Below, one piece after another: positions 26,146 to 41,741 of a stretch of DNA of 41,741 bases. The position numbers were made by a program, and so were the translations under genes. The notes under the pieces are model-generated. The model had not been told where the DNA came from. It ran no database searches and saw only the letters and a program-made list of their open reading frames with translations. Origin of the DNA: Oscillibacter sp. (GTDB lineage Bacteria; Bacillota; Clostridia; Oscillospirales; Oscillospiraceae); contig JAAVHC010000010.1 in assembly GCA_014799925.1 (NCBI GenBank), positions 3,744 to 45,484 on the forward strand, given 5' to 3'. Position 1 is the first letter of the stretch. Every line of letters begins with the position of its first letter.

Positions 26146-26187
26146 TAGCTCCTATTATAAAAATTCTAAACCAATGACGCATAATGT

Positions 26188-26223: not shown

Positions 26224-26249
26224 ATATATCTGCATACTTACAATGCGAA

Positions 26250-28835
26250 TCAGTCTATTGCATAATACAGTCCGAACAGTTTTCGTATAGTGGAATTAAG
26301 ATACATTCTTCGTCCGCCCTTGATCAGCAGCGCATCGCCAGGCTGCAGCAAACTGCATAGTTTTATCTCCAATTCTCTCTTGGTAGAGAAATATGCCGCA
26401 TTGGTTTTGTTGAATCCCGCGCGAATAGCAGCGTTATATGTATGTTCAGCCTGCGCACCATAGCAAAACAGGTAGTCGATATTAGTCCCTGTAATCATTT
26501 CACCGATCTTTTGATGCTCTTCCTTGCTGTTTTCAACAATATGCATCTCTCCGATAACAGCCACTCTTTTTGCACCTTCATCAATCGGGATTGAGCAAAA
26601 GCTTTCAATACTGGAACGCATAGATACCGGCGTTGCACTTCTGCAGTCCAAAAACATTTTCAGACCTTCGTACTCAATAAAATGCTGCCTGATGCCATTG
26701 CTCTTATACTTGGCAATAGACTTGATCACCTGATGAGCGTCGATCCCCATATCAACGCCGACCGCAAATGCAGCTACAGCGCTGTATGCGTTTATTCTGA
26801 CAGGCGACGGAAATACTATATGTGCCTTCTTTCCTTCGTAAGAGACGTCAAAATCAATCTTCACGCCATCGGAAGTCAGATTTTCGATTCGGAAGTCAAG
26901 CTTCTGTGCATTCATCCCAAACGTTTTCACTCTGCATTTTTCGCCCACATTTTTCCGCACGGCTTCCATCAGCGCTTCATCGTCACCGTTGATATACAAG
27001 ATCCCGTCCGGTGACATACCCGCGGTTATATCCGTATACCCTTGTATAATAGCTTCATCGGAGCCGAAGTTCTCCCTGTGAGCAATACCCATGTTTGTAA
27101 TAATTGCATAATTCGGTAGGATTGCACGAGAGATCATTTCGGCGGATCTTGGATCGCCTTCGTGCACCTCCTGCAAATATGCCTCGTGATAACTGCGCAG
27201 GCGCTGCATCACCATCATACTTGTATAGCGTGTATTCCAGTTGCCGGGAGACGCCAACGTAATAAACTGATCGTTCAAAACCTTTTCCAGGGTCTCCTTG
27301 GTTGTTGTCTTGCCGGCGTTGCCTGTAACGGCGATCGTTTGCACAGTAAATCTTCTGCGAATGTATGAAAATACCTTACAGAATGCTTCGCATACATCTT
27401 CGACCACAATGCAGGGCAGCCCTGTTATCTCACGATCCGTGATAAGTGCATGAGCGCCATTTCGATACGCATTTTGCAAATCGGAGTCACTATTAAAATA
27501 AAAACTGAAAAACAGACAACCATCAACGGCACTGCTGGGACGACTGCAAAGTTTAGAAAACGGGCGATTTAAAATTTGCTCCGGTCGTTTTACGTTTAAA
27601 ATGCTGCACACTTCTTCAACAGTGATGGACGTTGCTTTGAGTGTCGGAACATCACCCATCACTTTTTGAATATAAGTCTCTGCTTCAGGTTGTGATTTGT
27701 ACCATACGCCATCACTCAATGCGATATCTGTGGGGACAACTGCATATTTGCTGGTACGGATCTGATTGAACACATAGCAAGGGATGAAATAATCATTCTT
27801 TACGACAACATTCACATTCGTTTTTTGCAGTATGATCTGCAAAACGCCGCAATGCTTACTTATTATTCTGCGCTCGTTGGTAACAAAGTTACCCATCGAA
27901 TAAACCACAGGTACACGTTGACCGTTATTTGTAATGATAACATCATAATGCTGCAATGCATGCGGGTGTGAACCAACTATATAATCTGCTCCTGCATTGG
28001 CGATCTCATTCGCACGCTTTTTCTGCAGTTCACTGACTTCATGTGTGTATTCTTTGCCCCAATGCATATATACCAATACAAATTCCGCGCCGTTGTTTTT
28101 GGCCGCCGCAATATCTGTAGTTACCTTTTCCGGTGTGTAGGCATTTAACAGCGTGTCTCGTCCTAATTGCGTAAAATTTGTCTCATTTTTATTAAAATAA
28201 GTAGCATAGGACAAAATTGCCAGTTTGATGCCATTCACCTTTACATACAGGATACGTTCATCTCCCTCAGGATGAAATGTGCCGGTATGCATGAATCTTT
28301 TCTCATCCATCGCATCCAATGTATCCAGCAGTCCGATCACTGCCGAATCACAGGAATGATTGTTGGCATTTACTAAAGCGTCAAATCCAGCATAACGGAT
28401 AGCATCCAAATAAATGGCAGGAGCATTACAATGATATCCGCCCCCCTCTAATTTATGTAATTGATCCGCATAGGGTGTCGCATCAGTAAGCGTGGTTTCC
28501 AGGTTCCCTACAACAAGGTCAGATTGTTTGAATAGATTGCGTACATACTTAAATTGTGGGTGAAAATAATAGTGATCCCCATATTTATAAGCTCGGTGCT
28601 GCATGGGTTCACACATAATATCACCTGTGCAGGAAAGCACTGCTTTACCATTTTCAGTGGCTGCGGGGTTATACCAGTAGCCATCATCTCCTTTTATGTA
28701 ACGCGGTTCATCTTCCTTTGCCGGCTGCGGCCACGGAAAAGCTTCAGGGAATTTAATCTCATATTTTGCATATTCACGATTATACTTTCCCCATAAGACA
28801 CCGGAATTGTTGGAATAGTTTAATTTATTATCCAT
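26250..28835 (-). CDS. CapA-type metallophosphatase domain fused to a MurF-like ligase
   Basis: 861 residues. Residues about 60-380 are a PGA_cap/CapA domain: VLSCTGDIMCEPMQH, VVGNLETTLTD, NANNHSCDSAV, YMHWGKEYTHEV, GSHPHALQHYDV and YSMGNF are the family's metal-site motifs. Residues about 400-861 are a Mur ligase resembling MurF: SSAVDGCLFFSF (N-terminal domain), P-loop VTGNAGKTTTKETL near 505, NYAIITNMGIAHRENF, and a C-terminal domain from VAVIGEMHIVE to LLIKGGRR. CapA and a Mur-like ligase (PgsB/CapB) are separate proteins in poly-gamma-glutamate synthesis; one chain here implies a coupled amide-ligation step. The start follows AAGAAGG. AT-rich codons unlike the core. Substrate unknown. 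Confidence 0.85.
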   Translation of the reverse strand: MDNKLNYSNNSGVLWGKYNREYAKYEIKFPEAFPWPQPAKEDEPRYIKGDDGYWYNPAATENGKAVLSCTGDIMCEPMQHRAYKYGDHYYFHPQFKYVRNLFKQSDLVVGNLETTLTDATPYADQLHKLEGGGYHCNAPAIYLDAIRYAGFDALVNANNHSCDSAVIGLLDTLDAMDEKRFMHTGTFHPEGDERILYVKVNGIKLAILSYATYFNKNETNFTQLGRDTLLNAYTPEKVTTDIAAAKNNGAEFVLVYMHWGKEYTHEVSELQKKRANEIANAGADYIVGSHPHALQHYDVIITNNGQRVPVVYSMGNFVTNERRIISKHCGVLQIILQKTNVNVVVKNDYFIPCYVFNQIRTSKYAVVPTDIALSDGVWYKSQPEAETYIQKVMGDVPTLKATSITVEEVCSILNVKRPEQILNRPFSKLCSRPSSAVDGCLFFSFYFNSDSDLQNAYRNGAHALITDREITGLPCIVVEDVCEAFCKVFSYIRRRFTVQTIAVTGNAGKTTTKETLEKVLNDQFITLASPGNWNTRYTSMMVMQRLRSYHEAYLQEVHEGDPRSAEMISRAILPNYAIITNMGIAHRENFGSDEAIIQGYTDITAGMSPDGILYINGDDEALMEAVRKNVGEKCRVKTFGMNAQKLDFRIENLTSDGVKIDFDVSYEGKKAHIVFPSPVRINAYSAVAAFAVGVDMGIDAHQVIKSIAKYKSNGIRQHFIEYEGLKMFLDCRSATPVSMRSSIESFCSIPIDEGAKRVAVIGEMHIVENSKEEHQKIGEMITGTNIDYLFCYGAQAEHTYNAAIRAGFNKTNAAYFSTKRELEIKLCSLLQPGDALLIKGGRRMYLNSTIRKLFGLYYAID

Positions 28836-28864
28836 AATCTGAAAACCTTCTTTTTGTGTTCCTT

Positions 28865-28975
28865 TCAAAAGTTTAATACCCGTACTCCCCTGTTTGCCAT
28901 ATCCGCCGCAGCCGTACATCCGCCGTTGCCGGCGCCTGAAGCCGCGGCCTTCATACAACGGCCTGCTGTATGCAC
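28865..28975 (-). CDS. Possible 36-residue leader or remnant ORF
   Basis: Repeat copy 2 ends in AGGAGG and a GTG exactly as in front of the ATP-grasp gene. Here that GTG opens only 36 codons (VHTAGRCMKAAASGAGNGGC onward) and stops 29 nt before the CapA/MurF-like ATG. The piece is GC-rich, unlike the AT-rich sequence on both sides. It is either the scar of a replaced gene or a leader peptide. No family is recognised. Confidence 0.3.
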   Translation of the reverse strand: MHTAGRCMKAAASGAGNGGCTAAADMANRGVRVLNF

Positions 28976-29246
28976 AGGTTATAACCTCCTGACTATAAAC
29001 GAGCAAATCCAGAAAATTGCACAAAATTTCCTGTAGTTTACACGATCTACGTTCATGGAAATGACTTGTTGTACTACCGTTATGGACACTGTGCAAACAC
29101 GGATTTTATAATTTTCAGTTCGGCAATGCTCATTATTTGCTTCCTTTTAGGAAGCAAATAATGGGGGTACCCCCATTATTCCCATTTAGCTAACCTACTC
29201 GCTCTTGCGTCCTAATTTTGTGCATTCCTACCGTTTTGCTCATTGA
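28973..29246 (-). repeat. 274-bp duplicated leader/promoter cassette, copy 2
   Basis: Same unit as 25873-26145 with about ten differences. The 5-nt hairpin loop is the reverse complement of that in copy 1 (TTTTA against TAAAA on the plus strand). Its upstream end encodes the last 18 residues and stop codon of the ATP-grasp/LRR protein (29190-29246). The shared copies form direct repeats 3.1 kb apart that bracket the CapA/MurF-like gene. Confidence 0.85.
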
Positions 29247-32200
29247 GATGTATTTATATCTTATCGCATTTTCTTTGCAATATTGCTCCGCAAAAGAGTC
29301 TTTTTCAACCAAAACCGTGACATTCGGACAATTGCCGAACGCCTCTTCACCTATAAACTCCACGGACGGCGGAACAAGAACCTTCGTCAGCTTGTGGCAG
29401 TCGTAAAAGGCTCTCCTGCCTATTGAGGCTATGCCCTCCGGCAGTCTTACAGCCTCCAACGATATACAATAATTGAACGCACTGTTTTCTATCGTTTTTA
29501 GTTTTTTCGGCATATTTATCTTTTTCAGCTTTTTACAGATATAAAAGGCTGAATCACCAATGCTCTCAACGGTATCCGGCAAAGTGACCGATTTCAGCTC
29601 ACTGCATCTGTTGAATGCGTTGCTGCATATATCCTTTACCTCTTTACCGTTTACCGTCTCAGGCATCAAAATAACCTCACAGGCTTTATCCATGACCCCG
29701 CAAAACGACATACGATTCCGATAAAACACAAACTTAACATTGATATTGCTGTTGACACGTGTCTTGAATGTTTCATCGGAATCAATGGTCAGATCATAAA
29801 CATCGCTTGAGGGTACCATATCAAGCAATGTCAGACCGTACAATTTCATCTTTCTCTTTTTGACTCTGTCAAAGAACTCGTTGATTTCATCGGTATATTC
29901 AGCTGCCTTATGGAGATCCTGGTGGATATTTATCTCCAACACCTTTATACCCTCGTTTGTAATCGCCACGTCAAAGCCAAGGTACTCGAGTTCTTTCAGA
30001 TAGCCTGCAATTTCCAGAACAGCTTTCCTCATTTCCTGCCAACATGGAACGATGCCTGCTATAGGAACATTTGTATCCGGATGTACGGGACAATCGTAAA
30101 AGACATGATCTTTCACCATCTGGGGATTGTACAGCTCGCCCGTTTCTTTATCAACAGAGACACATATCCCGCCGTAGCCCACATTATCAGTAAATCCTGT
30201 TTTCTCTGAACCGATACGCATATACGTCTGCATGATTTTAGGCTCATAGCCCGAAGAATTTATTACCATCACACGAATGGTATTTACGGATTTCGGATAA
30301 AATCTCCGCAGTTCATCGTGCATGAAAAGACATTCGGTAATAATATAAAAGGATTTCTGAGAATTGATCGTCGTTACAATTTCCTCTTTTGAACTGGTCT
30401 TGCCATTTATAAGATATGTACCGTTGTCGTATTCAAAGAGATAAAAGCCGTCGCCGTGCGTACCAGCAGACGGCTTGAACACAAGGTTTGACACATCCTC
30501 AAGCAGCCTAATAACATCGTCGGCGCTGTTGCCAAAACCCGCGGGCAGATCCGCCATTTTCGCAAGCTCAGTTTTACCGTTTCGATTATATACCGAATAA
30601 TAATACTTCGGAACATATTTTTTTATCGGCTCCATAATTAAACGGTAGGTTGTTTTATCGTTCACCCATTTCTGATAAAGATTGTTTATTCGGTTCAGCC
30701 AGTAATAATCATAATCGGAAAGAAAGAAGTCAACATTTTCTTCCGTCAGATTATACTGCCATAGCCTGAATGATAAAAAGCCGTGATCCCACGCCCATTG
30801 CTTCTGCTCTCTTGTGGCTCCCTTTGTGTGTTTCTTGTCGTTCTCCAAAGCGTCCATCCACAGCCTGTACATATAGTCACGCATACCTTTTCTGCTTTCG
30901 GTTTGCGCACGTTCGTGAAAAAGCTTGTTTGTCAAAGCAAGCTTGTAATCACGGTAAGTATCGGCCACCGAGTTTTTCTCCCGCATCGCCGCTTTTCCTT
31001 TAAGATACAATCCAAGCTCCTCGTTATACGGCATGGAGGGCAGAGGCGGTTCGTGATTGACGCTGAATATCTTAAACAGCCCTTCATTGGGGATAATTGA
31101 AATTAGAAAGAAGTTGATTTGCTTTACACATTCGCTTATCTCACATACCTTGCTTATAATTTTATCCCAATTATCTACAAAATACTTAATGTGTTCATAT
31201 ACAAAGCTGCCGTCGTCTAGGTTTACCAAAACCGATTTTTGGAAGGATGAGCCGATGATCTCTTTTTTGAATATACTTGCCACCGCCGACAACACTCTCG
31301 TACCCGCTTCTGTGTCGTTGGCAACCCATAATTGTACAGAATATTCATAATCCGGAATTTTCTTTATCTCGGGGATATTCTCGGCTTCGTCTATGCTTTC
31401 CTCAAATATATCTTTATTATTACTGCCGTCGGCTTCGGCCGCGTTCTCGCCGGCCTCGCTTTCCGCGTCCTCGGCAGTTTCGCTTATACCGAGATAATCT
31501 TCTTCATCGTCCGCTGCATCGGAAAAAGCATCAACATCATTTTCACGATCGCTTTCTCTTTCATCGGCTTTAAAATGGTCATCCCCGACAAGGCCTTTAT
31601 AGTCGAGCCTGCACCTGTCAAGCTTGTCCGTCACAACATAGTTTGCCGAAAGCGCATTTATATAATTTGCAAGTTTTTTATTATAGACTTCTTCGTCATC
31701 GGTAACTACCACCGGTCCTTCTTCTTTGTATATCTCAAATAATCCGTCGTCTGTAAGCATAAGCATATAATGAGAAGACTTGCTCTGCCAGTATGACGGC
31801 CGCAGCTCGAGCCGCTTCTTTTCCTTTAAAAGCTCCGTTATATCCTTAACGCCGCATTTTCTGTTTTCAGTGCCGAAGGTAAGTATTATTTTTTTGTTTT
31901 CACGCTGTATGATGCTGAAATATATATTCCTGCACACTTCGCCGTGAGCATTAAGGACATAATTAAGCGTAAGCATGTCGTCCACCCATTTTGTGAACGA
32001 GTTGTTGTGCGGCAATATGGAAAGCAGATCAAGATCTGAAATATAATATGTGTCATTATAATTCCGTATATCGTATTTCTCTATTGTTGAGCACAAAAAA
32101 CCCGCCTTGTGGATCTTTTCAATGTCGTCCCTGTAATATTTCTTCTCAAAACGCGCTGTATCCCTGATTTTGAGATCGTTCCACTCCTTCGCTGTTTTGC

Positions 32201-32267
32201 GCGGATATCCCGACAATGTTGTGGGCAATATTGCGCTTTCGTGTTTTATCCTTTTGTTCAAGTCCAT
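29190..32267 (-). CDS. Large ATP-grasp (ATPgrasp_ST) protein with C-terminal BspA-like leucine-rich repeats
   Basis: 1025 residues. An N-terminal helical part (to about 225) is followed by a very acidic low-complexity linker (about 230-310), then a helical region, then the ATP-grasp core (about 595-815): FKPSAGTHGDGFYLF, FYPKSVNTIRVMVI, YGGICVSVDKETGELY, CPVHPDTNVPIAG and VLEINIHQDLH. From about 865 to 1005 come LRR_5 repeats (CSELKSVTLPDTVESIGDSA, CKKLKKINMPKKLKTIENSA and so on), more usual on surface proteins. The last 18 residues are encoded by repeat copy 2, so the C-terminus has been replaced or extended. GAGGAG precedes the start. First gene of the AT-rich island. Likely an amide ligase with a recognition domain; no signal peptide is seen. 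Confidence 0.82.
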   Translation of the reverse strand: MDLNKRIKHESAILPTTLSGYPRKTAKEWNDLKIRDTARFEKKYYRDDIEKIHKAGFLCSTIEKYDIRNYNDTYYISDLDLLSILPHNNSFTKWVDDMLTLNYVLNAHGEVCRNIYFSIIQRENKKIILTFGTENRKCGVKDITELLKEKKRLELRPSYWQSKSSHYMLMLTDDGLFEIYKEEGPVVVTDDEEVYNKKLANYINALSANYVVTDKLDRCRLDYKGLVGDDHFKADERESDRENDVDAFSDAADDEEDYLGISETAEDAESEAGENAAEADGSNNKDIFEESIDEAENIPEIKKIPDYEYSVQLWVANDTEAGTRVLSAVASIFKKEIIGSSFQKSVLVNLDDGSFVYEHIKYFVDNWDKIISKVCEISECVKQINFFLISIIPNEGLFKIFSVNHEPPLPSMPYNEELGLYLKGKAAMREKNSVADTYRDYKLALTNKLFHERAQTESRKGMRDYMYRLWMDALENDKKHTKGATREQKQWAWDHGFLSFRLWQYNLTEENVDFFLSDYDYYWLNRINNLYQKWVNDKTTYRLIMEPIKKYVPKYYYSVYNRNGKTELAKMADLPAGFGNSADDVIRLLEDVSNLVFKPSAGTHGDGFYLFEYDNGTYLINGKTSSKEEIVTTINSQKSFYIITECLFMHDELRRFYPKSVNTIRVMVINSSGYEPKIMQTYMRIGSEKTGFTDNVGYGGICVSVDKETGELYNPQMVKDHVFYDCPVHPDTNVPIAGIVPCWQEMRKAVLEIAGYLKELEYLGFDVAITNEGIKVLEINIHQDLHKAAEYTDEINEFFDRVKKRKMKLYGLTLLDMVPSSDVYDLTIDSDETFKTRVNSNINVKFVFYRNRMSFCGVMDKACEVILMPETVNGKEVKDICSNAFNRCSELKSVTLPDTVESIGDSAFYICKKLKKINMPKKLKTIENSAFNYCISLEAVRLPEGIASIGRRAFYDCHKLTKVLVPPSVEFIGEEAFGNCPNVTVLVEKDSFAEQYCKENAIRYKYISMSKTVGMHKIRTQERVG

Positions 32268-32657: not shown

Positions 32658-33296
32658 TCAACCGCCGGTTGTCTCTGTACAGCACACAACCGCCCCCCCC
32701 CCGCGGACTTCCCGAATCAATTTAGTGTAGTCATCTGCATACAGGAACTTATTGTTCATCACTTCGGTTCTTGAAATAATTCTGGGCTTTGCCATTACAA
32801 CCACGCTGTTTGAGGGCACATCCTCAACAACAACGCAGTTTGCGCCAATCCTGACGTTATCTCCGACCGTGATACCGCCTATGATTTTTGCGCCCGCGCC
32901 TATAAACACATTATTTCCAATCACGGGAAATCCGCTTTTCTTGCTGTCAACAAAGGTATTTGAGCCGATAGTAACACCGTGCATGATTGTACACCCGGTT
33001 CCAATCCTGGCGTAAACGGAAATGTGTATTCCCGTTAAACCATGTGGAGTACAGAATCTGTGTATATTTGAATTTATAGGGACAGATGCACACATTTTTC
33101 TTTGAATATACCGACATTTCACAAGCGCACGTTTTCTTTCCAACGGATCCTTGCTTTCAAAACATATCGCCCTGTATTTCCAGAAATTATTGCCAAGAGT
33201 ATTTTCATGATTCTGCTTCAATATCTCGTCAAGCAATTCAAGGTCATTTATTGAATCAATATATTCACAGACCGAATCAAAAGTAATGTCATTCAT
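32658..33296 (-). CDS. Hexapeptide-repeat acyltransferase, serine acetyltransferase-like
   Basis: 212 residues. A helical N-terminal part is followed by a left-handed beta-helix with repeating hexads (ISVYARIGTGCTIMHGVTIG, VIGNNVFIGAGAKIIGGITV, VRIGANCVVVEDVP) and the catalytic His in MHGVTIG. CysE-like enzymes in polysaccharide loci often O- or N-acetylate sugars or activate serine. Its start overlaps the Wzt stop by 8 nt, so it is coupled to the exporter. The 3' end is odd: a run of ten G (32693-32702) precedes a final VVCCTETTGG that does not look native, so the true C-terminus was probably lost at the recombination point. Confidence 0.83.
   Translation of the reverse strand: MNDITFDSVCEYIDSINDLELLDEILKQNHENTLGNNFWKYRAICFESKDPLERKRALVKCRYIQRKMCASVPINSNIHRFCTPHGLTGIHISVYARIGTGCTIMHGVTIGSNTFVDSKKSGFPVIGNNVFIGAGAKIIGGITVGDNVRIGANCVVVEDVPSNSVVVMAKPRIISRTEVMNNKFLYADDYTKLIREVRGGGAVVCCTETTGG
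32693..32702 (-). repeat. Poly-G(10) tract inside the acetyltransferase 3' end
   Basis: Ten consecutive G on the coding strand at codons about 199-202. Gain of one G would run the frame into the Wzm/Wzt remnant; loss of one would give a different tail. Such tracts are prone to slipped-strand mispairing. Confidence 0.75.
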
Positions 33297-34080
33297 ACAA
33301 TAATCTCTCTTTTGCAATTTGGGACTTTGCCTCTGCCAAAGTAATCTGCCCATCCAGATACTGCCGATACATCCCGCACAGGATCTTTGCGTCCCCGAAG
33401 GCAATCTGTTCCCCTTTCTCCAGCCACAGCACTTTGTTACACAATTTACGAACTTGCTGCACGGAATGGCTCACGAAAATTGTTGTTGTCCCGCCCTGAA
33501 TAATTTCCTTCATCTTGGCCTCGCTCTTCTTCCGGAAAGCCCCATCCCCCACGGCCAGCACCTCGTCCAGGATAAGGATATCCGGCTGGACCAGCGACGA
33601 GATGGAAAAAGCCAGCCGGGACTTCATCCCGGAGGAAAGCTGCTTGAAGGGCCGGTCCTGAAACTCCCGCAGCTCCGCGAAGTCGATGATCTGGTCGTAG
33701 GTCTCGTCCATGAACCGGCGAGTATACCCAAGTATCGCCCCCCGGAGGTATGCGTTTTCCCGGACGGTCAGGTCCCCGTCAAAGCCGCTGGCCATCCCCA
33801 CCAGGGCGGCAATGGTTCCCTCCCGCTTCACACACCCCCTGGTGGGTTCCATGATGCCGGAGATTACCTTGAGCAGGGTGGACTTTCCCGCCCCGTTGGC
33901 GCCGATGATGCCCAGCATGTCCCCCTTTTCCAGCGAGAAGGTAATGTCCTTATCCGCCCAGAACTCCTGGACATGGTAGTTGTGCTTCAGCCGGCGCATC
34001 ACGTATTCCTTCAGCCCGATGTCCTTGAAGTCCCCGGTCATGTAGCGGATGGAAACGTTTTTAACCTCCAAAATGCTCAT
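33289..34080 (-). CDS. Polysaccharide/teichoic-acid exporter ATP-binding protein (Wzt/TagH-like)
   Basis: 263 residues. Walker A GANGAGKST, signature LSSGMKSRLAFSI, Walker B ILILDEVLAVGD and H-loop FVSHSVQQV are present. The long N-terminal strand with GLKEYVMRRLKHNY is typical of the Wzt/TagH/RfbE branch. It lacks the C-terminal carbohydrate-binding domain of O-antigen Wzt, so export is probably chain-cap independent as for teichoic acids. The start is ATG 34080 behind GGAGGGGGG; an in-frame GTG seven codons earlier overlaps the permease stop. Second gene of the exporter pair; it drives polymer flipping across the membrane. Confidence 0.93.
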   Translation of the reverse strand: MSILEVKNVSIRYMTGDFKDIGLKEYVMRRLKHNYHVQEFWADKDITFSLEKGDMLGIIGANGAGKSTLLKVISGIMEPTRGCVKREGTIAALVGMASGFDGDLTVRENAYLRGAILGYTRRFMDETYDQIIDFAELREFQDRPFKQLSSGMKSRLAFSISSLVQPDILILDEVLAVGDGAFRKKSEAKMKEIIQGGTTTIFVSHSVQQVRKLCNKVLWLEKGEQIAFGDAKILCGMYRQYLDGQITLAEAKSQIAKERLLYE

Positions 34081-34097
34081 GTCGTTCCCCCCCTCCG

Positions 34098-34871
34098 TCA
34101 CACATAATACAGAAACCTGGTGTTGTACTTCTTGTAAATCCAGCAGCCCAGGCCCAGGAAGAAAAGCACATCCGCCGCCATCAGCAGGTGGAACCAGGCA
34201 GCAGGGATGGCAGCCTCGATGACAATCTCACGGAAGTAGCGGATAAACAGGTAAACCGGATTCAGCAGGAAAAGATTCTGCACCATGGGGTCGTAGCGGT
34301 CGACGGTGTAGAAGATGGCGGACATATACATCAGCAGCCGGGTAAACACCGACCAAAGGTACTGGATATCCCGGAAAAAGACATAGAGTGCGGAAAGAAT
34401 CAGGCCAACGCCGATGTTGAAAAGTACCAGGCAGCAGATAGGGTAGAGCAGCAGGACGAATTTCCAGGTAAATGTGATCTGATCGATGACACAGAACACA
34501 AAAAAGACGCAGAGCGTCAGCCCGAAGTTGATCAGGGTCTGGACATTTTTGGAGAAAAGAAACAGATATTTGGGAATATTCACCTTGGTAAAGATGTAGG
34601 CGTTTCCCATCAGCGAGCGCATCCCCTGGCTGGTGGAATCGTTGAAATAGGAAAAGACCAGATTGCCGCAGAAGAGATAGATGGTATAGTGAGGCGTGTT
34701 CCGTCCAAAGAACACGGTAAAGACCATCGCCATCACCAGCAGGGTCAGCAGCGGGGAGAGAACGCTCCAGGCCATCCCAAGAATGGTTCGCTTGTACTTC
34801 TTCTTGAAATCCCGCTTGACCAGCTCCTCAAAAAGAAAGCGGTATTGTCTGCATAAATCCAAAATCTTCAT
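34098..34871 (-). CDS. Polysaccharide/teichoic-acid exporter permease (Wzm/TagG-like, ABC-2 family)
   Basis: 257 residues. The amphipathic start (ELVKRDFKKKYKRTILGMAW) is the family's interface helix, followed by six membrane helices (for example LLTLLVMAMVFTVFF and the late FLLNPVYLFIRYFREIVIE loop). It forms the channel with the Wzt-like ATPase encoded directly downstream, 17 bp away. GAGGG precedes the ATG. A decayed second copy of this gene is joined to a Wzt piece at 32430-32632, so the locus once held two exporters or had a tandem duplication. Confidence 0.92.
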   Translation of the reverse strand: MKILDLCRQYRFLFEELVKRDFKKKYKRTILGMAWSVLSPLLTLLVMAMVFTVFFGRNTPHYTIYLFCGNLVFSYFNDSTSQGMRSLMGNAYIFTKVNIPKYLFLFSKNVQTLINFGLTLCVFFVFCVIDQITFTWKFVLLLYPICCLVLFNIGVGLILSALYVFFRDIQYLWSVFTRLLMYMSAIFYTVDRYDPMVQNLFLLNPVYLFIRYFREIVIEAAIPAAWFHLLMAADVLFFLGLGCWIYKKYNTRFLYYV

Positions 34872-34895: not shown

Positions 34896-36113
34896 TCAGT
34901 CCCGGAAATAAATATCCCGGGTGTACACCTTTTCCCGGACTGCTCTCAGCTGCGGATGGTACCGGTTGGCGACAATCAGCTGGCTGACCTCCGCGAATCT
35001 GGCGAAATCACCGATGACCTCTCCGCCCCAAAACCGTCCCTCCTCCGCCGCGGGCTCGTAGATCACAAGCTCTACGCCCTTCTCCAGAAGCCTCTCCATG
35101 ACGCCCCGGATACTGGACTGGCGGAAGTTATCCGAGCCCTCCTTCATGGTCAGACGATAAATTCCAACTGTATACCGCTGGCCCGGCCGGTCGTCTCGCT
35201 GGAAGAAGCCGAGCCGCCGCAGGATGGAATCGGCGATGAAATCCTTGCGGGTCCGGTTAGCCGCCACCACGGCTCCGATGAGGTCGTTGGGCACATCCCG
35301 GTAGTTGGCCAGCAGCTGCCGGGTGTCCTTGGGCAGACAGTATCCGCCGTATCCAAAGGAGGGATTATTGTAGTAATTGCCGATGCGGGGATCATGGCCG
35401 ATCCCTTCAATGATCTGCCGCGGGTTCAATCCATGGGCCTCGGCATAGGAATCCAACTCGTTGAAGAAAGCGACACGCATGGCCAGATAGGTGTTGGCGA
35501 AGAGCTTCACCGCCTCCGCCTCATCCGAATCCATCACCAGCACCGGGATGTCCTTTTTGACAGCCCCTTCCGCCAGCAGCCGGGCAAAGAGCCGCGCCCG
35601 CTGCCCAGACCGTGCCCCCTTCCCCGGCGTGCCTACCACGATGCGGGAGGGCATCAGGCTGTCCTGGAGGGCTTTTCCCTCCCGCAGGAACTCGGGTGAA
35701 AACAGCAGGTTTTCGGTGTTCAGCTTTCGGCACAGCTCCCTGGTAAAGCCCAGCGGCACTGTGGATTTGATTACCACCGTGGCCTTTGGCCCAGCCTCCA
35801 GGACCTGCCGGGCCACCGTCTCCACCGAGGAGGTGTCGAAGCGGTCCCGGTCAGCGCAGTAATCGGTGGGAGTAGCGATGACGACAAAGTCCGCCTCCCG
35901 GTAGGTCGCGGTCCCATCCGTCACCGCGGTAAGGTCCAGCTTTTCCCCTGCCAGATACCGCTCCGCCTCCGGGTCGGCGATGGGGGAACGCCGGGCGTTC
36001 ACCATCTCCACTCTGGTTGGGTCGCAGTCAACGGCGACGACAGTGTTCCTTTGAGAAAGCAGGATGGCGTTGGCCAGCCCCACATAGCCGATCCCCACAA
36101 CGACGATCTTCAT
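34896..36113 (-). CDS. ugd: UDP-glucose 6-dehydrogenase
   Basis: 405 residues. The NAD-binding start MKIVVVGIGYVGLANAILLS is followed by the KSTVPLGFT and LFSPEFLREG motifs. Catalytic Cys259 is in GYGGYCLPKDT, and the C-terminal UDP-binding domain ends IVANRYHPQL. It oxidises UDP-glucose twice to UDP-glucuronate. Its start overlaps the TupA-like gene stop as ATGA. Directly next to an amide ligase and an opine synthase, it most likely supplies glucuronate residues whose carboxyl group is then amidated. Another nucleotide sugar (for example UDP-ManNAc) is possible but less likely from length and motifs. Confidence 0.9.
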   Translation of the reverse strand: MKIVVVGIGYVGLANAILLSQRNTVVAVDCDPTRVEMVNARRSPIADPEAERYLAGEKLDLTAVTDGTATYREADFVVIATPTDYCADRDRFDTSSVETVARQVLEAGPKATVVIKSTVPLGFTRELCRKLNTENLLFSPEFLREGKALQDSLMPSRIVVGTPGKGARSGQRARLFARLLAEGAVKKDIPVLVMDSDEAEAVKLFANTYLAMRVAFFNELDSYAEAHGLNPRQIIEGIGHDPRIGNYYNNPSFGYGGYCLPKDTRQLLANYRDVPNDLIGAVVAANRTRKDFIADSILRRLGFFQRDDRPGQRYTVGIYRLTMKEGSDNFRQSSIRGVMERLLEKGVELVIYEPAAEEGRFWGGEVIGDFARFAEVSQLIVANRYHPQLRAVREKVYTRDIYFRD

Positions 36114-37021
36114 CTCATGTCCTCCTCTGGCATCGGCGGAAGCTCCAGCAGGCTGCCGAACAGGAGATCCGTCTCCGGCAGTCTGCCGGTATCCAGACCG
36201 CCTGACGGTGTAAAGGTCAGCTCCCCGAAGATCAGCCTGCCCTCCGCCTCGTAGAAGTCCACCCGGACAAAGGGAAAAGGCGCGGACAGGGCGGCGGCAC
36301 AGGAGAGCATACCGTCAAGATGGGGCGGCCTTTGCAGCGTAAAGCCCAGCGGCGCCGCCAGGCCGTCCCGGGTGATGGGACAGAAGTTCCAGTCCCTGTC
36401 AAAGAAGTAGAAGCGGGGCCAGCCCTTCTCCCGGCCATCGCACACCAGGATATACCGGGGCTCTCCGTGGAAGCAGTAGACCTTGTAGTCCACCGGGATA
36501 TGTTCTCCATCCCCCAGATATTTTTCGCAGAGAATCCGTTTGGGGATGCCCCGGTACTGGAGCTCGGCATAGCAGCGCCAGAAATCCGTCCCCATCCACC
36601 GTTCCAGCTGCCGGACGCTCCGGGGGATATCCAGCCCCGACTTTTGGGGGCAGAGGATATTGTAGCCGCAGCCATGGTTGCATTTGAGCACAAAGCTCTC
36701 CGGCAGCTCCTCCCAGGGGATCTCCCGGGGTGAGGCCCACACGCCGCAGACCTCGTTGAGGACCTCACCCCAGCCGGCTGAGGAGACATACTCCCGGACC
36801 AGCCATTTGTCGGCGCAGCGGGTCACCAGGGGATCGTCCCGATAGGTGTTCAGCTTCAGCCACAGAATCTTTTCGTTCAGCGTTTTGGGCGCGTTCAGAT
36901 CCAGCGGGCGCTTGAATTTCCTGCGGTACAGCAGCCGGGTGGTAAGCCCGGGAGAGATGGGAGAAAGATTATAGTAGACCAGCGCCGCCAATTTGGTCTT
37001 GATGCTGCCAAAGCCCCTCAT
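36110..37021 (-). CDS. TupA-like ATP-grasp ligase (teichuronopeptide-type)
   Basis: 303 residues. LNAPKTLNEKILWLKLNTYR, FVLKCNHGCGYNILC, ILCEKYLGDG, VDYKVYCFHGEPRYILV and FVRVDFYEAEGRLIFGELTF in order match the PF14305 TupA-like ATP-grasp family, with the metal-binding Asp and Glu at the end. TupA of alkaliphilic Bacillus is needed for teichuronopeptide, a copolymer of polyglutamate and polyglucuronate. The family is taken to form amide bonds between amino acids and uronic acids. It is coupled to ugd (4-nt overlap) and starts 3 nt after the CEO-synthase stop. The ribosome-binding site is weak, so coupling matters. Confidence 0.85.
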   Translation of the reverse strand: MRGFGSIKTKLAALVYYNLSPISPGLTTRLLYRRKFKRPLDLNAPKTLNEKILWLKLNTYRDDPLVTRCADKWLVREYVSSAGWGEVLNEVCGVWASPREIPWEELPESFVLKCNHGCGYNILCPQKSGLDIPRSVRQLERWMGTDFWRCYAELQYRGIPKRILCEKYLGDGEHIPVDYKVYCFHGEPRYILVCDGREKGWPRFYFFDRDWNFCPITRDGLAAPLGFTLQRPPHLDGMLSCAAALSAPFPFVRVDFYEAEGRLIFGELTFTPSGGLDTGRLPETDLLFGSLLELPPMPEEDMR

Positions 37022-37023
37022 TG

Positions 37024-37998
37024 TTACTTGCAGAACACCCCTCTTGCGGATCGGAAATCAACGATATTCTGATCAATGATGTGACCTTTCCGAATGACCA
37101 CCGCAGCCTCCAAAGAAGGAGAATAGCGCCCCTCCGCCAGCATATCGATATAGGGGGCAAACGCGCGGCTGAGGTTGTCGGTAACTGTCACGGGGTACAT
37201 AGCGGGGGTGTTGTCCACCGCATAATGGATCACGTCGTCCACCACATAGACCGGGTCATCAATGGTAGTGGGATGGGAAGTCTCGATTTCCAGATAAGGG
37301 TCACAGCTGACGTCGATAATCAGGGTCCCCGGGCGCAGCCGCTTCAGGTCTTCGCGGTAAATGAGCCGGTCAGTCCGGTGGGTATCCCACATGACACAAT
37401 TGACCAGGACATCATAGTTTGCCATATTCGCGCGGAACTGCGCCTCATTTTTCCGTGCGTAGATATCTACCTCTGCGCCCAGCTCCGCCAAAATGCGGAA
37501 AGCCCCTTTGCCGGTCTGTCCATTGCCGATGATGGCCACCTTTGCGTCGTAGGGCATCCGGCCGCTGTAGCGGAAGCCGTGGAGCACGGCGGCCTCTCCG
37601 GCGATCTCCCTGTTGCGGTAGAAGATGTACCGCCCGTTTTCGTACATCTCCTCCCACGCGACGACGGTATGTCCCGCGTTCAGAACTGCGGAGGTAAAAT
37701 CGATGTTCTGCACCGAATGGGCCCAGCCGCAGAGGATCTTGGGCTTTTGCAGCAACTCCAGATAGTCCGCATCTCCCAGCTTAACATCAATAAGAATATC
37801 GCAGTCCAGTACTTCCGTCCGGGGGACGATATGTACGCCGTACCTGCTGTACTCCTCATCCGAATATCCAAGAGAAAGGCCGTACCCCTCCTCAAAACAC
37901 AGCTGCTCCGGGCAGTGGACGGAGGACAGGTCCTTGGGCAGGATGGCGCGGCGCTTTTCGTTATTTTTGTGGCTGACGAGAAATCCGATGGTATTCAT
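37024..37998 (-). CDS. N5-(carboxyethyl)ornithine synthase-like opine dehydrogenase
   Basis: 324 residues beginning MNTIGFLVSHKNNEKRRAIL, the alanine dehydrogenase/PNT N-terminal domain as in lactococcal CEO synthase (Ceo). The SLGYSDEEYSRYG segment, HSVQNIDFTSA, and the NAD fold KVAIIGNGQTGKGAFRILAE follow. CEO synthase condenses pyruvate with ornithine or lysine and reduces the imine with NADPH, giving carboxyethyl amino acids. AAGGAG nine bases before 37998 fixes the start. An in-frame upstream extension is the tail of an unrelated ATP-grasp gene. Placed before TupA-like and ugd genes, it probably makes the amino acid that decorates a uronic acid polymer. Confidence 0.82.
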   Translation of the reverse strand: MNTIGFLVSHKNNEKRRAILPKDLSSVHCPEQLCFEEGYGLSLGYSDEEYSRYGVHIVPRTEVLDCDILIDVKLGDADYLELLQKPKILCGWAHSVQNIDFTSAVLNAGHTVVAWEEMYENGRYIFYRNREIAGEAAVLHGFRYSGRMPYDAKVAIIGNGQTGKGAFRILAELGAEVDIYARKNEAQFRANMANYDVLVNCVMWDTHRTDRLIYREDLKRLRPGTLIIDVSCDPYLEIETSHPTTIDDPVYVVDDVIHYAVDNTPAMYPVTVTDNLSRAFAPYIDMLAEGRYSPSLEAAVVIRKGHIIDQNIVDFRSARGVFCK

Positions 37999-38082
37999 TT
38001 CTGTTTTCTCCTTTTGCTGATCGTAGTAGGGGTAGCGATGCAGGTCCTGATGGGAATTGACCTCAAGGATCACAAAACCCGG
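37999..38082 (-). pseudogene. C-terminal tail of a lost ATPgrasp_ST gene
   Basis: Minus-strand frame GFVILEVNSHQDLHRYPYYD, directly after a stop codon, matches the ATP-grasp end VLEINIHQDLHKAAEY of the protein at 29190-32267. It reads in frame into the CEO-synthase start. A third ATPgrasp_ST gene must once have stood, or been fused, here. The remaining gap to 38175 shows nothing else. Confidence 0.6.
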
Positions 38083-38175: not shown

Positions 38176-39117
38176 TCAACAAAACAGTCTCCGATACCAC
38201 CGCGTTCCTTCAATCCTGCCATTCCATGGGCGCCGGTCCATGGAATCAAGAAATTGCCTGAGCATCATCTGTACCTCACCGGCATACTCCGTATCCGCGC
38301 TGCGTTCGGCCCAATGGGCGATATCCAGCAGCTCCGCGTCCAAAATGCGGCGGCGCTCCCGGTCCGGCAAATCCCCGCACAGGGCGCTGACAAGCCGGTA
38401 AGACTCAAGATGGCAGAAGAAGTTCCGGATTCGTCCCCCCACCAGAGAACTGCTGATATTGGTCCGGTAATGGATCAGAAGCTCCCGCGAAAAGACGATC
38501 CTCTCCGCTTTCAGAACAGTCTCCCAGAAGAAGGAACGGTCGTTGACACAAAGAAGATCGTTAAACTGAATATCCCTTTCCAGAAGAAACTGCCGCCTTA
38601 CGATACCGCCCCAGGGGGCTGCACACACCTTGGGGAAGAGCCAATAAAAAGCTGGGTACCGGACCACTCGATCAAACAAAAAGAAGGGGACCCTTTTTAA
38701 CCCGTTATGTACCGACAAAGATGTCTTGCCTGTCCGGTCATCCACATCCATAGCCCGGCAGCGGAGGACGTCCACTCTGCGGCGGCTGGCCGCCTCATAG
38801 ACCCGCCCCAGGCTGTCCGGGAAAAGCCAGTCATCCGCGTCCATGAACAGCAGATATTCCCCGCGGGCGGCTTCCAGCCCACGGTTGCGGCAGCAGCCCG
38901 CGTAAAGGTTCTCCGGATTACGCAGGACCCGCACACGGCTGTCCTTCCAGCTGTACTCGGTCAGGATACCGACGCTCCCGTCCGTTGAACAGTCGTCCAC
39001 ACAGATGACCTCGATCTCCCGAAGGTCCTGGCCCAGGACACTATCCAGGCACTGACGCAGATACCTTTCAGCCTGATACACCGGAATGACAACAGACACT
39101 TTGACGCTCATTTTCAT
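38176..39117 (-). CDS. GT2-family glycosyltransferase
   Basis: 313 residues, GT-A fold. KVSVVIPVYQAERYLRQCLD opens the nucleotide-sugar domain, VICVDDCSTDGS holds the first Asp pair and EYLLFMDADDWLFP the DxD metal site. The C-terminal half is helical with no clear membrane segment. It adds a sugar during repeat-unit assembly on the cytoplasmic side. Start and the upstream gene's stop overlap as TGATG, so both glycosyltransferases are translated together. Sugar specificity cannot be read. Confidence 0.88.
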   Translation of the reverse strand: MKMSVKVSVVIPVYQAERYLRQCLDSVLGQDLREIEVICVDDCSTDGSVGILTEYSWKDSRVRVLRNPENLYAGCCRNRGLEAARGEYLLFMDADDWLFPDSLGRVYEAASRRRVDVLRCRAMDVDDRTGKTSLSVHNGLKRVPFFLFDRVVRYPAFYWLFPKVCAAPWGGIVRRQFLLERDIQFNDLLCVNDRSFFWETVLKAERIVFSRELLIHYRTNISSSLVGGRIRNFFCHLESYRLVSALCGDLPDRERRRILDAELLDIAHWAERSADTEYAGEVQMMLRQFLDSMDRRPWNGRIEGTRWYRRLFC

Positions 39118-40169
39118 CAGCTGCCCCCATTCCCGCGGCAGAACGCGGTCCTTCCTTCCCGGACCTTCCGTTTTACACATTTCAAATAGTAAAGAACCTT
39201 TGAAAAGGCATCGATACCGGCCAGAGAGAGGAAAAATTTGATCAGCCGGATGCTTTTCTTTTCGGAACTGTCCAGGATCCAGTCCGCGCTCCGCAGGGCT
39301 CCGCGTGCCGCCGGCCGTTCCGCAGCAGGGACTTCCTCCAGCAGAGCGATGTTCAGGGTGTACTCCAGAATGATCTTATCGGAAAGGAGCCGGGCGCTCT
39401 CGGTCTGGTCTTTTTGCAGATAGCCTACCGACCGCTGAAGCATGTCCGACAGCTCCTGCACCCGGCTTTGGGTGTACCGGCGGGTCAGGGTATTGCCGTA
39501 GTTGACCCGGTAAAAATAGTAGGGGTTGTGGAAAAACACCGGCTTTTCCGCTTTGGTCAAGGCACGCACGACATACTCCAGGTCCTCGGCACAGCTGACC
39601 CCTTCAATAAAGCGCAGACCGTTCCGGAGCAGAAAGTCGCGCCGGAAGAGATACCGCCAGACATTCCATACACAGCCCTTTTTTCGCAGAAACTGCGGGA
39701 GATACTCCCTGCCCTGTATGGGCTCGGAAGCGTCATCGATCTGGCATATCCGGTCCAGAATATAACCGTTATCCGCGACGCGGCAAAAATCGGATATCCA
39801 GAGGTCCGCATCCGGATACTTTTCAAGATATGACAGGGTGTTTCTCAGGGCATCCGGGGAAATATGGTCGTCGCTGTCAAAAAAAGCGATATACCTGCCG
39901 ACAGCCTGTTCCAGTCCCCGATTTCTTGCGGAAGAGGGACCCTGATTCTCCTGTCGAAGCATTTTGACCGCAGGACAGCTCCGCTGGTATTGCCGGCACA
40001 ACTCGGTGCTCCCGTCGGTAGAGCCGTCATCCACCAGAATGATCTCGGTCTTTGCCGCCCCCACCGCCAGGATGCTGTCGATGCAGCCCGGCAGATATTT
40101 CCTTGAATTGTAGACGGGAATCACGATACTCAGCATCTGCGGCTCGGCCGCACAGTTTTCCGGGGTCAT
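39117..40169 (-). CDS. GT2-family glycosyltransferase
   Basis: 350 residues. MLSIVIPVYNSRKYLPGCID, IILVDDGSTDGSTELCRQY, the GPSSARNRGLEQA loop and YIAFFDSDDHISPD (DxD-type metal site) are typical GT2 motifs; a SCAEDLEYVVRAL segment supplies the probable acceptor-site ED. C-terminal amphipathic helices (IRLIKFFLSLAGID) may touch the membrane. The start (40169) overlaps the stop of the upstream recombinase-like gene as ATGA, so this enzyme depends on translation of that gene. Likely assembles the surface polymer; sugar unknown. Confidence 0.88.
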   Translation of the reverse strand: MTPENCAAEPQMLSIVIPVYNSRKYLPGCIDSILAVGAAKTEIILVDDGSTDGSTELCRQYQRSCPAVKMLRQENQGPSSARNRGLEQAVGRYIAFFDSDDHISPDALRNTLSYLEKYPDADLWISDFCRVADNGYILDRICQIDDASEPIQGREYLPQFLRKKGCVWNVWRYLFRRDFLLRNGLRFIEGVSCAEDLEYVVRALTKAEKPVFFHNPYYFYRVNYGNTLTRRYTQSRVQELSDMLQRSVGYLQKDQTESARLLSDKIILEYTLNIALLEEVPAAERPAARGALRSADWILDSSEKKSIRLIKFFLSLAGIDAFSKVLYYLKCVKRKVREGRTAFCRGNGGS

Positions 40170-41020
40170 CGCTCCCACCCCACCGACAGCTGCTCCTGCT
40201 CTAACTGCCACTCTATGGCCTGTTCCACCAGCAGGGCAATGTTGCTTTCCACCATGGCTCGGGTGGAAAGATACAGCTTCCGCAAACACTTTGGATTGCC
40301 CTTCTCCTTCGGCACCTTTGCTTCTTCACAGAGGTTCCGGATCACCGCGGACACATGAGTCCGGTGCATGGGCCGGCCGTCCCGGCTCTGAAAAATGGGG
40401 CCGGAACCGATGTCATTTTCCTGTGCGTAGTTCAAAAGCTCCTTCCGGAGGCATCCCGGAACCGTCACAATCTGCTTGTATTTGTTCTGATCGCAGACGA
40501 TCTTCCCCTCCTGAACAGCCTCCACCGTTACCTCCGGCAGTTCCTGAGCAAAAAGGCCCGTCGCCGCGAACAGCTTGATGAGAAGATAGACCTTTTCCTT
40601 GTCCAGGGCCTTCGCCGTCCGCAGCAGATGCAAATATTCCGCCCGGCTCAGCTCCGGCTGAGGAGGCTTTTCATCCTTAAGCTGCCCCGCAAGCTGGTAC
40701 TCCCGGTGGCCAATATAGTCCAAGTAGGAATTCGCAGCCGAGAGAAACGCATTCACCGAACCCGGCGTATAGCCATGCTGAAGCAGTGACTCCCGCCACT
40801 TCTGTAATGTGCCGTACCGGATGGTCTTATCTGCCGGCAGGTCATCGTAGAACCTCTGCAGCTTCCGACGGTAGAACTTCACCGTCCCATCCGAGCGGTT
40901 CATTTTCGCGTAGTCAGCAAGGAACCGCTGCATGTCCTCCTCGGTCATTACGACATCCTCTGTCAATCGCCGCTGCCGTGGCGGACGCTCCCCTCCTATA
41001 TGCTGTCTGGTCTGCGGCAT
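40166..41020 (-). CDS. Catalytically degenerate tyrosine-recombinase-like protein, first gene of the polymer operon
   Basis: 284 residues. The N-terminal core-binding domain (MTEEDMQRFLADYAKMNRSD to about 115) and an integrase-like C-terminal fold are recognisable and clearly paralogous to the recombinase at 41325-41741 (shared TVEAVQ, IxSGxIF, LCxxA). The first catalytic Arg is replaced (ATGLFAQEL instead of TGLR), the HxLRH box reads KCLRKL, and the LGH and nucleophile Tyr segment are absent. It probably binds DNA without cutting it. AAGGAGG precedes the ATG. Its stop overlaps the first glycosyltransferase (ATGA). A regulator of the operon or of the invertible region is the best guess. Confidence 0.8.
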   Translation of the reverse strand: MPQTRQHIGGERPPRQRRLTEDVVMTEEDMQRFLADYAKMNRSDGTVKFYRRKLQRFYDDLPADKTIRYGTLQKWRESLLQHGYTPGSVNAFLSAANSYLDYIGHREYQLAGQLKDEKPPQPELSRAEYLHLLRTAKALDKEKVYLLIKLFAATGLFAQELPEVTVEAVQEGKIVCDQNKYKQIVTVPGCLRKELLNYAQENDIGSGPIFQSRDGRPMHRTHVSAVIRNLCEEAKVPKEKGNPKCLRKLYLSTRAMVESNIALLVEQAIEWQLEQEQLSVGWER

Positions 41021-41047
41021 AGCTCCTCCTTTCCCGGTTCATCTCAA

Positions 41048-41060
41048 AATACATAAGTAG
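41048..41060 (+). repeat. Left 13-bp inverted repeat of a candidate invertible promoter
   Basis: AATACATAAGTAG at 41048-41060 is the exact complement of CTACTTATGTATT at 41297-41309. It lies between the operon promoter and the first gene's ribosome-binding site. Confidence 0.75.
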
Positions 41061-41118
41061 CATTAAAATTGAAGAAAAAGAAAATGCCTTTCGCCAAGAT
41101 TCCGCATAAACTTTTTAT

Positions 41119-41147
41119 ATCATACCATAAGCAGAGCGGAATTGCAA
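41119..41147 (-). promoter_or_regulatory. Promoter of the surface-polymer operon
   Basis: On the minus strand TTGCAA (41142-41147), a 17-bp spacer and TATGAT (41119-41124) with TGG upstream. It lies inside the inverted-repeat bracket and points toward the operon, so the present orientation would be ON. The leader to the ATG at 41020 is about 90 nt. Confidence 0.65.
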
Positions 41148-41188
41148 GTGAACGGCCCACATTTTGCGCATTTTTTTGCACAACAAAT

Positions 41189-41230
41189 AGCGGTCAGAGC
41201 GGGTTATTTTTCCGCATGACCGCTTTTTTT
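41189..41230 (+). terminator. Intrinsic terminator inside the candidate invertible segment
   Basis: AGCGGTCA (41189-41196) pairs with TGACCGCT (41217-41224), with an inner GCGG/CCGC stem, followed on the plus strand by seven T (41224-41230). In the present orientation it faces away from the operon; after inversion it would face the operon. On the minus strand it may weakly end the recombinase transcript. Confidence 0.7.
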
Positions 41231-41296
41231 GTCTGAGGCTCCTCAGCTACCGTTATCCCAGTCTCTTTTTGCGGAATATGGCATAAGTACTTTGTA

Positions 41297-41309
41297 CTAC
41301 TTATGTATT
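41297..41309 (-). repeat. Right 13-bp inverted repeat with recombinase core-like site
   Basis: CTACTTATGTATT complements 41048-41060. This side also forms CATAAGTA (41282-41289), an 8-bp spacer and TACTTATG (41298-41305), the arm-spacer-arm layout of tyrosine-recombinase core sites. Confidence 0.75.
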
Positions 41310-41324
41310 CTGTCTTATTTTTAG

Positions 41325-41741
41325 CTAAACAATCAACCCCAATTTTTCCAACTGCCGGGTATGCTCTATTCCGGTGGAAATGAGATATATGCGGGTGGTT
41401 TCAATACTGGAGTGCCCCAGCACATCCGCCAGTTTCGCCACATCCCGGCAGACACGGTAAAACGTCCGGGCAAACAGATGCCGCAGATTGTGGGGGAAAA
41501 CCTTCGAGGGCGCCACGCCCGCCTTTTTGCATAAAGCTTTCATCTCCGCCCAGATCTGACGGCGGGAGACGCCTTTTCCGCTTCTGGTGAGAAAAATCTC
41601 GCCGGAAGCGATTTTTTGTTTCCTGGCATACTTTTGAAGCTTCCGGCAGAGTTTTCCGGGCAGCAGAATGGTGCGGATCTTGCCTTTCAGCGCAACATCC
41701 ACATAACCCGTCTGAACGGCCTCCACCGTTATATATTTCAC
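41325..41741 (-). CDS. Tyrosine recombinase, C-terminal catalytic part (5' end outside window)
   Basis: The frame is open to the window edge, giving 138 residues of the catalytic domain. Catalytic box HNLRHLFARTFYR and LADVLGHSSIETTRIYL carry the His, Arg, His and nucleophilic Tyr of active XerC/D-like enzymes; the first Arg lies outside the window. It shares several stretches with the degenerate paralogue at 40166-41020. It ends 15 bp before a 13-bp repeat that is inverted 240 bp away around the operon promoter, so it is the natural candidate to flip that segment. Element integration is the alternative role. Confidence 0.9.
   Translation of the reverse strand: MKYITVEAVQTGYVDVALKGKIRTILLPGKLCRKLQKYARKQKIASGEIFLTRSGKGVSRRQIWAEMKALCKKAGVAPSKVFPHNLRHLFARTFYRVCRDVAKLADVLGHSSIETTRIYLISTGIEHTRQLEKLGLIV

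Follow-up and report, generated by a model that had tools for sequence, protein, structure and literature searches.

A probable recombinase-driven invertible promoter ahead of a surface-polymer operon that begins with a dead recombinase homolog

Results

A putative promoter switch ahead of a surface-polymer operon

The window, i.e., the whole 41,741-nucleotide stretch of DNA analyzed here (bases 3744-45484 of contig C19, in a genome of 2.97 Mb and 84 contigs), very probably contains a tyrosine recombinase-driven invertible promoter (inverton) that controls a surface-polymer operon. Promoter inversion by a tyrosine recombinase had been put forward in a preliminary description of this DNA and is the best-supported reading, with reversed segments beside forward flanks in three relatives and both orientations across the family. 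Site anatomy, the two orientations found among homologs and the linkage to a recombinase gene support it by comparison, and we infer that the window strain itself would switch, that the adjoining recombinase would be responsible and that inversion would affect transcription. On the minus strand, the 3' part of the recombinase gene is followed by a repeat, 236 bp, the inverted repeat, ORF1 and the glycan and exporter genes:

41325..41741, minus strand: tyrosine recombinase (Phage_integrase), C-terminal 138 residues including HxxR, GH and Tyr; gene cut by the contig end
41296..41313, minus strand: putative recombinase-proximal recombination site, ACAGAATACATAAGTAGT, in the register favored by relatives; contains 41297-41309
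41048-41060 and 41297-41309: perfect 13-bp inverted repeats flanking 236 bp
41061..41296, no strand: putative invertible segment, in the ON orientation in the assembly by comparison with relatives
41189..41230, plus strand: intrinsic terminator predicted from its fold, directed away from the operon; would face the operon once inverted
41119..41147, minus strand: predicted sigma-70-type promoter TTGCAA-17-TATGAT, aimed at the operon
41044..41061, plus strand: putative operon-proximal recombination site, TCAAAATACATAAGTAGC, in the register favored by relatives, inner arm weak; contains 41048-41060
40166..41020, minus strand: ORF1, catalytically dead tyrosine recombinase, first gene of the switched operon
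39117..40175, minus strand: family 2 glycosyltransferase
38176..39180, minus strand: family 2 glycosyltransferase
37024..38073, minus strand: alanine dehydrogenase/PNT-like protein
36110..37021, minus strand: TupA-like ATP-grasp
34896..36113, minus strand: UDP-glucose/GDP-mannose dehydrogenase
34098..34871, minus strand: ABC-2 exporter permease
33289..34101, minus strand: ABC transporter ATPase
32658..33404, minus strand: hexapeptide transferase
24697..32267, minus strand: more surface-polymer-type genes in the same direction as the operon, among them the following three
29190-32267, minus strand: sugar-transfer ATP-grasp (ATP-grasp_ST) domain, then BspA-type leucine-rich repeats
26250-29096, minus strand: PGA_cap (CapA) domain fused to Mur-ligase domains in one reading frame
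24697-25875, minus strand: ATP-grasp_ST

The genes of 24697..32267 may belong to the same transcript as the switched operon. Between the two gene groups, overlapping frames at 32299-32690 contain pieces like the ends of the adjoining upstream exporter permease and ATPase genes, and by eye their translations read as those of a decayed partial duplication. Elsewhere in the window, 5077-8796 encodes a restriction-modification-like single polypeptide with N6-methylase and type I specificity domains.

The perfect 13-bp inverted repeats of the preliminary description are present inside a 16-nt repeat with a complementarity of 94%, and an exact repeat of such length is reached by 1 of 2000 dinucleotide shuffles of 41010-41330. 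The promoter with a 17-bp spacer that had been described as facing the operon was likewise located, with its -35 element TTGCAA at 41142-41147 and, after 17 nt, its -10 element TATGAT at 41119-41124, preceded by TG. Taken alone, this match is at chance level (1 found, shuffle mean 0.9), which counts against the inverton reading; its prediction draws on the consensus, on the family-wide excess of promoter calls over shuffles and on the alignment with relatives. The terminator said to be aimed the opposite way corresponds to a fold of -21.6 kcal/mol (z -5.6) at 41189-41230, which was not listed by a simple terminator pattern scan for loops of 3-8 only.

The placement of the recombination sites is a matter of judgment. 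An arm-8bp-arm core had been proposed for the right site, and the string CATAAGTA-8-TACTTATG is indeed present at 41282-41305, but we rejected it as the core, its register failing to align with relatives; alignment with these favors a core that is probably shifted outward, with the outer arms ACAGA/TCAAA. For the window, an automatic arm score preferred yet another, inner register, at 15 of 20 compared with 14 (by hand count) for the outer register. The inner arms are weak in the inner and outer register alike, unlike those of most of the recombinase family, so the switching rate may be low, or the switch may be locked.

Upstream of the -35 element, at 41173-41188 on the minus strand, lies a stretch like ATTTGTYGYGCAAAAA that also occurs in L041, L042 and the switch in C7 (L009) of the same genome, and in looser form in L165 and L168. 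From these recurrences it is a candidate regulator site. As a binding motif of ORF1 it was rejected, six-mer counts failing to separate 18 segments linked to dead recombinases (including that of C7, which has no adjoining dead gene) from 44 other ones.

Recombinase paralogs and further switches in the same genome

The stop codon of the adjoining recombinase (41325-41327) lies 15 bp from the right repeat, as previously noted; the gene was, however, also called intact-looking, and this part did not stand, since the contig ends at the window end and the gene is truncated, a point against the inverton reading. Its 3' part retains the catalytic residues. The last 101 bp (41641-41741) recur at the ends of C17 (L007) and C65 (L008), which hold different 5' halves of two near-identical recombinase paralogs, and at least two such paralogs were probably collapsed in the assembly.

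A complete recombinase with its catalytic residues, 82% identical to that of the window over 137 residues, is encoded in C9 and followed by a switch with 20-nt repeats (19 matched) 268 bp apart. This is an OFF arrangement, the promoter aiming back at the recombinase and the terminators toward the next genes; the two genes adjoining the switch have no Pfam match and precede a same-strand SLH/CAP-domain protein. The switch in C7 (L009:8837-9106), with perfect 14-nt repeats 242 bp apart and no adjacent recombinase, is in the ON arrangement, its enclosed promoter facing a gene whose product has an ABC-2 exporter domain, and is presumably flipped in trans.

Homologous segments in opposite orientations

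Related genomes had been suggested as a place to look for inverted alleles, and comparison with them recovered three reversed segments. G138 (L040) and G050 (L041 and L042) carry a switch between the same two genes, in the same order as in the window. With L040, L041 and L042, respectively, the window segment aligns in reverse with scores of 58, 63 and 51 vs 21, 25 and 18 forward (shuffle maxima 28-33), and the flank on the ORF1 side aligns forward with scores of 49, 31 and 29 vs 8-10 in reverse (shuffle maxima 22-23); with 300 shuffles for each alignment, the reverse segment scores and the forward flank scores lie above all of them. In all three relatives the promoter is directed away and a T-tailed hairpin is directed toward ORF1. 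The segment of C7 aligns forward with that of the window (55 vs 18 in reverse) and in reverse with those of L041 (121 vs 31) and L042 (83 vs 37), the difference being small for L040 (41 vs 33).

A further case lies within a single genome. Lachnospiraceae C57_80_CC_BP has two operons about 21 kb apart (L186 and L187) that share a cassette, in which 119 bp, including the repeat arms, are exact reverse complements of each other. Past the repeats, the two copies remain identical for another 71 bp toward the gene and for about 22 bp in the opposite direction, after which their surroundings differ. The first genes, identical at 488 of the 489 nt compared, encode a shortened relative of ORF1 (CAT-only), and both operons encode glycosyltransferases and an ABC exporter. 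One copy is ON and the other OFF according to a weak promoter match, TTGCAA-17-TAGATT. The repeats of this element are different ones, with 24 of 28 positions matched and 91 bp between them, and no recombinase of the window's family was found within 6 kb upstream of either copy. Together, these sequence comparisons strongly support inversion, homologous segments occurring in both orientations between homologous flanks in relatives.

Distribution and anatomy of related switches

A search with the recombinase of G050 gave 86 matches at E<=1e-75, spread over 54 of the 250 genomes sampled from one Clostridia family (36 of 106 genera). The repeat survey covered 89 loci, including the window and C9, from which 13 with less than 350 bp downstream were left out. 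An inverted repeat begins at most 120 bp after the recombinase stop codon in 65 of the resulting 76 evaluable loci, as compared to 2.8% of shuffles; the 11 loci without a repeat at this threshold count against the inverton reading. Promoters were called (score >=8) in 57 of 67 segments vs 27% of shuffles, and strong ones (>=9.5) in 43 vs 6.6%, the 67 including L041 and L052, whose repeats are below threshold and whose limits were set by hand, and counting the near-duplicates L155/L156 twice. By promoter direction, 17 segments are ON, 38 OFF and 2 tied, and 10 have no call.

The two-way ON/OFF logic that had been proposed for the window, with promoter and terminator opposed, is mirrored across the family: the two point apart in 32 of the 40 segments with both calls (Fisher p 0.003), i.e., 25 OFF segments with the terminator toward the operon and 7 ON segments with the terminator away from it, the discordant ones numbering 5 and 3. 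These 8 segments, and the 10 of 67 without a promoter call, were counted against the inverton reading.

Site arms resembling ACRRA...TYYGT are found in 57 of the 65 loci at a score of >=15 of 20, a criterion whose words were picked after viewing the sites and by which the window qualifies in its inner register. Not part of this score, the outer spacer bases (A, T / A, T) are also common to 48 to 54 of these 57 loci. The four central bases vary from locus to locus (0.1-0.4 bits) yet agree at 98-100% when the two sites of one locus are compared. The agreement within loci is in part a product of the search, which detected repeats by their match, but the variation between loci is not. Strand exchange by a tyrosine recombinase requires such a pattern, and comparison supports the repeats as recombination sites of this family.

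Contigs end within 100 bp after the recombinase match at 10 of the 74 places counted (out of 86) and within 100 bp before it at none, the corresponding numbers being 13 vs 3 within 300 bp and 21 vs 6 within 2000 bp. By eye, seven of the ten nearest ends fall in a site or at its inner edge, two just past it and one inside the gene. Sequenced populations that contained both orientations would be expected to give such clustering; assemblies could also break at these points where a site exists in several copies. Behind switches without ORF1, a tally of 37 of 49 proteins gave mostly DUF4379 (10), PIR1-like_C (9), SLH (3) and response regulators (3), with fewer of others; epimerase and RmlD had one member each among the 25 of 34 families listed.

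A family of dead recombinases in switched operons

ORF1 shares 31-36% identity with the live recombinases encoded in the same genome. At the catalytic positions R-K-H-R-H-Y it reads F-N-K-R-E-S; with the first Arg, the Lys, both His positions and the Tyr replaced, it lacks the residue set of an active tyrosine recombinase. The same holds for its homologs: none of 43 dead sequences keeps the Tyr, the HxxR His or the H/W, the first arginine being kept in 5 and the second in 28, whereas 88 of 88 live homologs have both arginines and the HxxR His, and 85 the Tyr. The 43 were taken from 60 dead-type loci and include the nearly identical L178 and L179; left out were L162-L164, L185 and L194 (the same loci as L040-L042, L050 and L048), L184 (a second copy in an included genome) and the partial or shortened L186-L189 and L196-L202.

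In the phylogeny, a long branch unites the dead sequences in a single group, whose local support is low (0.47). Pairwise dN/dS is 0.06-0.21 in 10 of 11 pairs and 0.36 in one, and below 0.1 in 7, several dS values being near saturation; judged by these ratios, the dead recombinase family is under purifying selection. Its C-terminus has a conserved EQEQ motif in place of the tyrosine helix. Pfam and NCBIfam matches of ORF1 are to phage-integrase/recombinase families only, one of them below Pfam's cut-off, and on this ground we rejected an UpxY/NusG-like antiterminator. Structures similar to the AlphaFold2 model (pLDDT 85.5, pTM 0.57) include XerA, lambda integrase, XerD and, as a weak match, YopR/MrpR (8bj6; Foldseek E 7e-4, TM 0.34, 15% identity). 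Family matches and model together point to a tyrosine recombinase fold, in which the placement of domains is uncertain because of the pTM of 0.57.

Of 47 dead-type loci inspected, 39 had more than 1.6 kb upstream and were evaluable, and 30 of these have a same-strand live recombinase no more than 4.5 kb upstream; the 8 left out include the window and L041, both of which adjoin a recombinase. Homologs of ORF1 exist in named strains, not just in MAGs: Acetatifactor muris DSM 23669 has L192, L193 and L195, of which the direction of the promoter makes two ON-like and one OFF-like, and Oscillibacter sp. 1-3 also carries a homolog. Polysaccharide-type genes follow ORF1 in 7 of the 13 loci scanned, with one or two genes scanned per locus and more for the window. 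Other loci have sortase/LPXTG (L054), a LytTR regulator/kinase (L045) or HD/EAL (L056) genes in this position, and in L046 and L049 the genes behind ORF1 gave no hit. The gene mix differs from that behind switches without ORF1, in small numbers and at different scan depths.

Two side observations concern gene content at these loci. In L051, the gene behind ORF1 (79-1407) matches the Pfam model Cas9_a, an odd context. L048 and L050 (G216) have two or three dead-recombinase-like frames in tandem, some matching the catalytic-domain part only, and CAT-only forms like these also occur in L186-L188.

Alternative readings

Given the weak inner arms, the segment might now be fixed, having inverted in ancestors and become locked in the window strain as these arms decayed. 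Their poor fit to the family arms and the imperfect operon-proximal sites of L040 and L042 speak for this, but drift would be expected to erode the perfect 13-bp match that the two sites still show, the 3' part of the recombinase has kept its catalytic residues and relatives with similar sites have the segment in the opposite orientation, and we consider a locked segment unlikely. We regard it as quite unlikely that another enzyme uses the sites in trans and that the adjoining recombinase is incidental: C7 has a switch without an adjoining recombinase, L186 and L187 have none of the window's family within 6 kb upstream and recV of Clostridioides difficile is not close to cwpV (PMC2784873), yet 65 of 76 loci have repeats just behind the recombinase gene, with similar arms in 57 of them, and trans action by the paralogs of C17 and C65, which may occur, is compatible with inversion of the promoter by this recombinase family.

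Many tyrosine recombinases of this fold serve mobile elements, and recombinase and repeats could accordingly mark the end of an integrated element, i.e., att sites. We rejected this reading because the repeats are inverted, about 250 bp apart and enclose a promoter, and because homologous segments are found in both orientations, including the exact 119-bp inversion between L186 and L187; it is extremely improbable. As to ORF1, it could be a decaying recombinase copy without a role, in line with the loss of nearly all catalytic residues and the existence of shortened, CAT-only forms, but decay would fit poorly with 43 homologs that group together and share a conserved C-terminal EQEQ, with dN/dS of 0.06-0.36 (below 0.1 in 7 of 11 pairs) and with the presence, in 30 of 39 evaluable loci, of a live recombinase upstream, and we regard a decaying copy without a role as quite improbable.

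Discussion

According to the promoter-inversion model, the recombinase just upstream, or a near-identical paralog, would exchange strands at the two sites and flip about 250 bp. In the ON state, as assembled, the promoter would drive ORF1 and the glycan and ABC-exporter genes, the terminator being harmless in the other direction. In the OFF state, the promoter would point toward the recombinase, and the terminator, now before ORF1, would halt read-through from the recombinase gene. ORF1 would be produced in ON cells only.

ORF1 may be a DNA-binding regulator of the switch or of the operon, and its place as the first gene of the switched operon suggests feedback on one or the other. We tentatively propose, as an idea somewhat short of probable, that the ORF1 family represents dedicated regulators in phase-variable, often polysaccharide, operons of gut Clostridia, in which a protein present in ON cells only, by itself or in mixed complexes with the live enzyme, would bind to the promoter region or the sites of inversion and so bias or lock its own switch or hold sister switches OFF. 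If so, ORF1 would be an enzyme-derived feedback layer on phase variation, to which UpxY/UpxZ in Bacteroides are a parallel, and the dead recombinase would be a candidate for setting the ON/OFF ratio or keeping sister operons exclusive. Capsule phase variation is best known from Bacteroides; homologs of the live recombinase in 54 of 250 sampled genomes of one Clostridia family and repeats at 65 of 76 evaluable loci suggest that surface variation in poorly cultured gut Clostridia may equal that of Bacteroides in programming.

The switch itself belongs to a known kind, since invertible promoters with neighboring tyrosine recombinases have been described, including group 139/35 of Clostridia. There, 32 of the 33 invertons of group 139 are in Clostridia and almost all have a tyrosine recombinase nearby, orientation shifts of this group, with the tyrosine-recombinase invertase group 35, were seen in reads, and an example from Clostridium sp. 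D5 has 26-nt repeats 205 bp apart (PMC11892184). The window shares with these the Clostridia host and the neighboring tyrosine recombinase, and its switch is perhaps near group 139, to which it is likened by description and not by repeat motif or invertase. In contrast to the window, group 139 comes with no mention of a dead recombinase in the switched operon in the sections consulted (PMC11892184).

Bacteroides capsule promoters and the window have in common a short invertible promoter ahead of a surface-polymer operon, and the first-gene position of ORF1 is comparable to that of UpxY in Bacteroides. The two differ in that Mpi is a serine recombinase whereas the window has a tyrosine recombinase, and in that UpxY is an antiterminator whereas ORF1 is a dead recombinase. 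B. intestinalis is described as having a short invertible promoter ahead of capsule operons (PMC8375218), and UpxY genes as enriched among the regulatable genes adjoining Bacteroidota invertons (PMC11892184).

The cwpV/RecV system of C. difficile involves a XerC/XerD-family recombinase and imperfect 21-bp repeats 195 bp apart, with an intrinsic terminator proposed in OFF; its promoter lies outside the segment and recV is not nearby (PMC2784873). The window, in contrast, has an adjacent recombinase, and the promoter found and the terminator are both inside the segment, on opposite strands, which differs from the cwpV type. The fim switch of E. coli, as told in the same paper, has its promoter between inverted repeats and FimB and FimE encoded in the same locus (PMC2784873), i.e., two active recombinases, whereas the window has one putatively active recombinase and one dead homolog.

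Invertible promoters are thus known, and what appears new, within the accessible parts of the open-licence papers searched, in which we found none on a dead recombinase in an invertible operon, is the dead recombinase as a conserved partner. MrpR (YopR) of phage SPβ has a tyrosine-recombinase fold whose recombinase function has been lost, and acts as a sequence-specific repressor; its authors suggest that recombinases may have been recruited in this way more widely (PMC10516654). A sequence relationship between ORF1 and MrpR was rejected, no match being found at E<=0.01, and the two differ in that MrpR, a phage repressor, retains the Tyr and Lys that are missing from ORF1, which lies in an invertible operon. 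By analogy, MrpR would offer a precedent for ORF1 as a dead recombinase acting as a repressor.
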